This document shows, piece after piece, positions 1 through 1,407 of a stretch of DNA of 64,000 nt. The notes under the pieces were generated by a model. It ran no database searches. It was not told the origin of the DNA and worked only from the letters and a program-made list of their open reading frames with translations. Source of the DNA: Arenicola marina. Its lineage: Eukaryota > Annelida > Polychaeta > Arenicolidae. The stretch covers positions 4,903,059-4,967,058 of the forward strand of contig OZ025253.1 of the NCBI GenBank assembly GCA_964019135.1. The letters are read 5' to 3'. The stretch's first letter is position 1. Every line of letters begins with the position of its first letter. A program made the position numbers and the translations under genes.

Positions 1-1146
1 GTCTCACACCACTCACCTGTCTCACACCACTCACCTGTCTCACACCACTCACCTGTCTCACACAAATCACCTGTCTCACACCACTCACCTGTCTCACACC
101 ACTCACCTGTCTCACACCACTCACCTGTCTCACACCACACACCTGTCTCACACCAATCACACCACTCACCTGTCTCACACAAATCACCTGTCTCACACCA
201 CTCACCTGTCTCACACCACTCACCTGTCTCACACCACACTCCTGTCTCACACCACACACCTGTCTCACACCAATCATACCACTCACCTGTCTCACACCAG
301 TCACCTGCCTCACACCACACTCCTGCCTCACACCACACCCCTGTCTCACACAAATCACCTGTCTCACACCACTCACCTGTCTCACACCACTCACCTGTCT
401 CACACCACTCACCTGTCTCACATTACACACCTGTCTCACACCCATCACACCACTCACCTGTCTCACACAAATCACCTGTCTCACACCACTCACCTGTCTC
501 ACACCACTCACCTGTCTCACACCACTCACCTGTCTCACACCACTCACCTGTCTCACACAAATCACCTCTCTCACACCACTCACCTGTCTCACACCACTCA
601 CCTGTCTCACACCACTCACCTGTCTCACACCACACACCTGTCTCACACCAATCACACCACTCACCTATCTCACACAAATCACCTGTCTCACACAACTCAC
701 CTGTCTCACACCACTCACCTGTCTCACACCACATTCCTGTCTCACACCACACACCTGTCTCACACCAATTATACCACTCACCTGTCTCACACCAGTCACC
801 TGCCTCACACCACACTCCTGCCTCACACCACACCCCTGTCTCACACCAATCACACCACTCACCTGTCTCACACCACTCACCTGTCTCACACCACATTCCT
901 GTCTCACACCACACACCTGTCTCACACCAATTATACCACTCACCTGTCTCACACCAGTCACCTGCCTCACGCCACACTCCTGCCTCACACCACACCCCTG
1001 TCTGACACCAATCACACCAATCACCTGTCTCACACAAATCACACCACTCACCTGTCTCACACAAATCACTTGTCTAACACCAGTCACCTGTCTCACACCA
1101 CTCACCTGTCTCCGAACCTGTCTAACGCCTTTCTGTCACCACTCAC
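1..1146 (-). repeat. 18-bp minisatellite carrying the gene 1 splice donor (about 60 units)
   Basis: Plus-strand unit gtctcacaccactcacct with point variants (cacaaatcac, cacacacctg, cacactcctg) fills the region and runs off the left edge. On the gene strand the unit is TGTGAGACAGGTGAGTGG. That is nearly the junction of the adjacent EGF exon, TGCGAGACAG followed by GTGAGTGG, so each consensus unit carries a CAG/GTGAGT donor in sense orientation. It lies immediately 3' of the exon ending at 1147, in the intron. Long frames in it (up to 213 codons, CETGEW periodicity) follow from the period being a multiple of three. Confidence 0.95.
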
Positions 1147-1407
1147 CTGTCTCGCACAATGGTCCCGTAACACCTTCTGGACAGACACACATGAATCCGC
1201 CTCCGCCTCCCGAGGATGATTCACTTGATTTGCTCGATTCTGAACTTGAGGTTTTCGCGCTCCTTCTTGATCTCCCGTTTTTTTTGGACTTGGAGGATTT
1301 GCTTGATTCCTGTGTGCTAGATTTGGTTGATTTCGTTTCACTGTCACTGGCAGGCGTTTCGACGCACGTGCCTCCGTTTTGACAGGGGTTCGGTTGACAA
1401 GCTCCTC
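1147..1407 (-). CDS. Gene 1 exon 4: EGF-like domain with Ser/Lys-rich insertion
   Basis: Acceptor gattttgcag, phase 1, then GACQPNPCQNGGTC, a low-complexity stretch of about 50 residues rich in Ser, Lys, Thr and Gly, then FMCVCPEGVTGPLCET, with donor GACAG/GTGAGT, phase 1. The six EGF cysteines are all present, but the loop between cysteines 3 and 4, normally a few residues, carries the insertion. The exon is 261 nt and symmetric 1-1, as usual for shuffled EGF exons. Its donor is the first copy of the motif amplified in the neighbouring minisatellite. Confidence 0.85.

Follow-up and report, generated by a model that had tools for sequence, protein, structure and literature searches.

Minisatellites repeating exon ends and their 5′ splice sites in the polychaete Arenicola marina

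At the end of an EGF exon of the polychaete Arenicola marina, a minisatellite of about 120 units repeats the exon–intron junction itself, and similar junction arrays recur in this genome at a pair of trypsin-like gene copies, at an ALDH1L gene and in four of the 40 arrays of a grid sample. The array at the EGF exon is probably a mirage-type minisatellite, left as a by-product of a tolerated duplication across the donor site. The window, as we call the whole stretch of 64,000 nucleotides that was analysed, corresponds to C6:4903059-4967058 within an 867-Mb assembly. The COX1 of this assembly is 91% identical to that of Pilargis wolfi, followed by other annelids, which points to a polychaete and probably to Phyllodocida.

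The array belongs to a Ly6-EGF gene on the minus strand, whose exons join in frame with GT/AG borders throughout. The coding part of exon 1 (3980..4034) is, judged by eye, signal-peptide-like; exon 2 (3035..3117) and exon 3 (2005..2164) contain the first and second parts of a Ly6/uPAR-like domain, and the two combined match PF00087 (1.9e-9) and PF00021 (7.9e-7) in Pfam. The EGF exon (1147..1407; 261 nt, phase 1-1, Pfam EGF 1.2e-8) includes a Ser/Lys-rich insert and ends in CGAGACAG/GTGAGTGG; written on the minus strand, the ending is TGCGAGACAG/GTGAGTGG, with position 1147 as the last base of the exon and 1146 as the first base of the intron. Downstream EGF exons are found to the left of the window, in a neighbouring stretch (L009), where 14 near-identical units follow each other at a spacing of 497-511 bp. 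They form a tandem exon array in their own right (L009 743-7706), each unit of about 500 bp consisting of an EGF exon and an intron, with a 95% match according to TRF. Each unit holds one 120-nt phase-1 EGF exon (Pfam EGF 3.4e-5), and all 14 of these exons end in GACACAG/GTAACT, to be compared with GAGACAG/GTGAGT in the EGF exon of the window; the phase is identical and the same last cysteine precedes the junction. The original prediction had placed an exon end at 1147, and the 14 homologous exon ends within the same gene, together with the phase, support this placement independently of the array. If the L009 exons are the next ones in the transcript, the array-bearing intron would be 3,528 bp long, from L009:7619 to window position 1146. 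A second copy of the Ly6-EGF gene was not found in this genome, and of 353 candidates examined, none reached E <= 0.001 as a relative that could serve for a paralog or empty-site comparison.

The authentic junction forms the upstream edge of the array. The first stretch of the intron (1113..1146, minus strand) contains degenerate copies of the unit, and the array as defined by TRF then occupies 1..1112 (minus strand), the right half of a longer array. For this window part, TRF gives a period of 18, 65.3 copies and the minus-strand consensus TGTGAGACAGGTGAGTGG, a unit that can be divided as TGTGAGACAG/GTGAGTGG; the consensus equals the junction at 17 of its 18 bases, spanning 10 exonic and 8 intronic bases, just as had been claimed. 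In the joined stretch, the array extends from L009:9047 to window position 1112 and comprises 119.8 copies in 2,066 bp, so that the predicted number of about 60 copies is right for the share within the window, which is roughly half, and too low for the array as a whole. Cutting the array at motifs chosen by eye gives 109 pieces, flanks counted, nearly all of them 18 or 27 bp long. Because the copies adjacent to the exon are degenerate, a 40-base stretch with the authentic junction at its centre agrees with the array at only 27 positions; among randomly chosen GT sites whose upstream DNA is free of arrays, 1.7% reach this level.

Many repeats of the array keep the splice signal. On the splice-site matrix used for all bit scores, 97 GT sites score at least 8 bits in the whole stretch (2,147 bp), which contains 67 exact copies of CAGGTGAGT (CAG/GTGAGT) and 86 of CAGGTGANT, the number of exact donors rising to 68 in a slightly longer stretch; the corresponding counts for the window part (1,147 bp) are 46, 29 and 39. 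A near-perfect donor in each unit, as originally predicted, is thus an overstatement, about half of the window units being perfect. The claimed sense orientation, on the other hand, is borne out: 69 sense sites score at least 10 bits, compared with a mean of 5.5 and a maximum of 14 in 50 shuffles and with 0.08 such sites per kb and strand in DNA without arrays, and no antisense site within the 2,147 bp reaches 8 bits. The columns of the donor are more variable than the other columns of the array (p 0.016), and the RNA fold of one array stretch has a z-score of -4.8. Beyond the junction, the frame continues as GT GAG TGG TGA; with the TGA at intron nucleotides 9-11, any later donor, or retention of the intron, would meet a stop, and at this locus the prediction is right that no donor but the first preserves the reading frame.

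With a unit that spans the boundary and splice signals that are kept, the array can be filed as a mirage minisatellite on both sequence features. Mirages were described as tandem repeats over exon–intron boundaries in the amphioxus Adh3 and globin genes (BflGb6 and BflGb9), with AG/GT kept in many repeats and splicing apparently undisturbed (PMC3087553), which confirms the amphioxus Adh precedent named originally; further cases are troponin C and PGBD5 (PMC3902484). Going by the accessible text of these two reports, the amphioxus and worm arrays share a unit made of an exon end and an intron start, AG/GT in many of the units, a first copy abutting the authentic splice site and a unit length within 10-160 bp. 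They differ in phylum, the host being an annelid here and a cephalochordate there; in copy number, about 120 compared with a few at the globin genes; in the types seen, donor and acceptor in amphioxus but only donor in the worm; and in the evidence, as splicing and instability were tested in amphioxus while the worm array is known from its sequence. Compared with the known mirages, it is the host phylum, the number of copies and the repeated occurrence within the grid sample that are new. Tandem duplication of AGGT-containing segments is, in the parts of PMC4974935 that were available, also described as a route to intron gain (potato RdRp, ATP2A1 and 24-bp repeats in fission yeast), and there too splice signals are copied by the duplication, but the worm array lengthens an existing intron. 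Intron 1 of earthworm metallothionein contains minisatellites (PMC12783039) and, like the arrays here, represents annelid intronic tandem repeats that differ between gene copies; unlike in the worm array, the available text describes no exon end or splice site in their units. Our search, covering few subscription journals, found no published report of junction arrays in annelids or polychaetes.

We envisage that a short tandem duplication came first, covering roughly 10 nt at the end of the EGF exon and 8 nt at the start of its intron, and that slippage or unequal exchange then amplified it to some 100-120 units. In each donor-spanning duplication, the upstream copy would remain a complete exon with its donor and the rest would land in the intron; since the exon and the donor are left intact, the array would fall in the intron and be tolerated, while one inside the exon would change the protein. 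The first, exon-adjacent donor is probably the one that is spliced, and the repeats probably have no maintained function. In a genome unusually rich in minisatellites, such duplications could be expected to span donors at many genes. The 17 matching bases, the 14 homologous exon ends, the recurrence at other genes and a 43% coverage of the sampled DNA by minisatellites all argue for this by-product reading, as do the undisturbed splicing in amphioxus, within the accessible text (PMC3087553, PMC3902484), and the lack of consistent donor-column conservation across 12 arrays.

Within the window itself, the pattern is repeated at a trypsin-like exon on the minus strand (15108..15265; Pfam Trypsin E 0.0035, the score of 17.6 bits falling short of the 20.6 cut-off) that ends in RDACQ/GTACGTGA. 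An 82-bp array of 5.5 copies (TRF; 14719..15173, minus strand) overlaps the exon end, its unit consisting of that end followed by GTACGTGACCCCC; junction and array agree at 37 of 40 bases, and the unit would shift the frame. The same intron holds a 28-bp array of 30 copies with CAG/GTACGTG in its unit (13780..14621, minus strand) and a 31-bp array of 23.3 copies (12969..13687, assigned to neither strand) in which no donor was noted on the gene's strand. The end part of a duplicate exon lies at 63937..64000 (minus strand) and runs on to L016:94; it is overlapped by an 82-bp array of 9.5 copies (63220..64000, minus strand), and a 28-bp array of 27.1 copies is found at 62363..63122 (minus strand). 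The number of 82-bp units therefore differs between two gene copies of one assembly, 5.5 versus 9.5. The trypsin-like gene is part of a segment duplicated in tandem. The two copies (window 12090-24882, and from window 60712 onward to where L016 ends) lie about 49 kb apart, are 97.8-99.6% identical in four of their longer matches and differ in the copy numbers of their arrays.

Elsewhere in the genome, a search for three close donors placed at least four arrays near the beginning of C1 among its listed matches, and for two of them the upstream edge was obtained; for L035 and L036, arrays listed by pattern, this edge falls outside the stretches examined. At ALDH1L (L034; C1:606015-612276), the array directly follows an exon that ends in DKIQ and is identified by 50 of 50 residues aligned to 10-formyltetrahydrofolate dehydrogenase (E 1e-24). 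Its 39-bp unit, VSTARPLWCDKIQ repeated, is open and in the frame of the exon in the nine copies observed, so that later donors would add 13-residue repeats instead of a stop; the claim that the frame survives at the first donor alone is therefore no general rule. An antistasin/lustrin-like array (L033) was rejected as a firm junction array, as the donor and the intron start are shared but the exonic part is unclear, and its score of 22 out of 40 is reached by 6.7% of random sites.

The grid sample comprised 16 stretches of 10 kb and 20 of 1.2 kb, altogether 184 kb (L017-L032, L037-L056), of which the 40 qualifying arrays (period at least 12, at least 3 copies, score at least 100) make up the 43% given above. 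Four of these arrays begin at exon ends: two in introns of one coiled-coil gene (L018), for which no Pfam match exceeded the cut-off, one at a WASH-7-like exon (L019; PF14744 4.8e-10, no match in a PDB search) and one at a glutathione peroxidase exon (L032; PF00255 1.5e-8, PDB 2.9e-13). Across the junction, 34-39 of 40 bases agree at five of the other array-bearing exons; the EGF-repeat exons of L009 were not among the junctions scored in this manner. Arrays whose unit matches the adjacent exon end were thus found at the trypsin-like pair, ALDH1L, and the coiled-coil, WASH-7-like and glutathione peroxidase genes, and these genes as well as the EGF exon support the claim that the array grew from the junction. 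The consequences of using a later donor vary: a TAA follows at once in the WASH-7-like intron and in one coiled-coil intron, a stop is met at the eighth codon of the other coiled-coil intron, and the 41-bp glutathione peroxidase unit shifts the frame. Most donors have decayed in one of the L018 arrays. Among the strong-donor arrays with a visible upstream edge, those encoding zinc fingers set aside, three of four lie on exon ends (L018, L019, L032) and L031 does not. The 10 kb of L026 consist of a 68-bp unit with AAG/GTAAGC and an open, exon-like stretch, the edge of the array being outside the 10 kb, and several arrays are near exons but not across them (L019 379-830, L031 4409-4653, L057 and L058).

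An array that touches a donor by chance, a wrong exon model or an error of assembly could produce the same picture, and of GT sites picked at random whose upstream DNA is free of arrays, approximately 1.2-2.9% are indeed located at an array edge; together with the authentic EGF junction matching its array at no more than 27 of 40 bases, this is what such a reading can draw on. Coincidence or artefact was already disfavoured, however, and appears very improbable given that the 17-base match includes the exonic part, that several unrelated exons reach 34-39 of 40 and that homologous exons of the same gene end alike. We also regard it as improbable that the donors are a maintained cluster, in which the repeats would recruit U1 and serve to regulate splicing, to retain the intron or to guard against early polyadenylation. 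That the 67 exact sites of the U1 type all lie on the sense strand would suit such a role, and the donor columns of L035 vary less than its other columns (p 0.00075); against it, ten of the 12 arrays give no significant difference and the set as a whole shows neither consistent conservation nor decay, the donor columns of the EGF-exon array deviate in the opposite direction, most donors are lost in one L018 array and the copy number is unequal between the trypsin-like copies. The donor-column deviations of L035 and of the EGF-exon array also count against the by-product reading. A competing or decoy action of the array donors, proposed originally, finds no support here, and amphioxus splicing is undisturbed as far as the accessible reports tell (PMC3087553, PMC3902484).

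The counts of donors bear on a further explanation, in our judgement unlikely, that 5′ splice sites are preferred for tandem duplication beyond the effects of position and selection, the candidate causes being U1 or R-loop occupancy, the coupling of transcription and splicing, and the GT-rich donor sequence. Donors of at least 8 bits are present in seven of the 40 grid units compared with 1.77 expected in array-free DNA (none of 200 draws as high), and donors of at least 9 bits in four compared with 0.80 (p 0.01). Genome-wide, the triple-donor pattern has 10,528 matches, about double those of three matched controls (5,315 reversed, 5,618 for an anagram and 6,039 for the anagram's reverse), and a strict donor motif 1,700 versus 745, whereas an acceptor motif has 1,228 versus 1,624 in its control; these figures count matches instead of independent arrays and are strongly influenced by a small number of long ones. 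Acceptor scores in the array units show no significant excess, and of the 30 arrays whose end can be seen (52 flanks in all), four are of the donor type and none is of the acceptor type, the exons at the flanks having been identified by eye from translations so that some may be missed. The donor excess also counts against the by-product reading, and since a purely neutral sieve should leave arrays at acceptors as well, the lack of any among the arrays seen speaks against it. Compared with shuffled units, however, the excess of strong donors is marginal (p 0.05 at 8 bits, 0.06 at 9 bits), and the mean shuffle p across the 40 arrays is 0.52, with 4 of 40 below 0.05, for which reason the notion that this genome's minisatellites consist of donor arrays was discarded. 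The predicted departure of arrays from chance is therefore seen against array-free DNA and in the exon-end position of three of four strong-donor arrays, but not against shuffled units. One gene accounts for two of the four sample cases, and donors picked regardless of arrays had a junction array at none of eight myosin donors (those obtained of 77 listed myosin exon matches) and at none of three other donors of the Ly6 gene; the myosin junctions score 15-20 of 40, several being placed one base off, and the background averages 18.7. With none of the 11 array-blind donors carrying a junction array, and with most arrays lacking a donor, a general rule of arrays at donors is countered. That a donor-linked process has put donor arrays at thousands of exon ends of this polychaete is rather unlikely; if it has, introns would grow from the 5′ end, and in many genes tens to hundreds of donors, nearly identical to one another, would compete. 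A comparison of densities among the listed arrays (at least four donor arrays within the initial 1.75 Mb of C1, at least seven reversed-motif arrays in 17.6 Mb; p 0.013) was discarded, because a stricter donor search gave at least seven arrays in 57 Mb of C1 and the start is thus locally rich; three of the listed reversed-motif arrays contain donor-like sites.

Mirages have so far been reported from a handful of amphioxus genes, as far as the accessible parts of PMC3087553 and PMC3902484 go. Four junction arrays among 40 grid arrays of an annelid suggest that they are not limited to cephalochordates, and that, more than an oddity of that lineage, they can follow from the proliferation of minisatellites. 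Such arrays are natural tests of 5′ splice site choice among dozens of copies and of the lengthening of introns.

Some further repeats were seen on the way. Five of the 16 grid stretches of 10 kb (L020, L025, L026, L029 and L030) consist of one minisatellite over their whole length. Within the window, the unit of a 17.8-kb array of 445 copies of 40 bp (39144-56906) lacks a strong donor, and no exon was recognised where the array ends. An 84-bp repeat in L027 (5186-6015) encodes C2H2 zinc fingers on the minus strand, as judged by eye, and is probably a coding repeat. At C4:380231-384073, several myosin-head matches in a row correspond to nearly the same stretch of the profile (~110-154), as would be the case for alternative exons.
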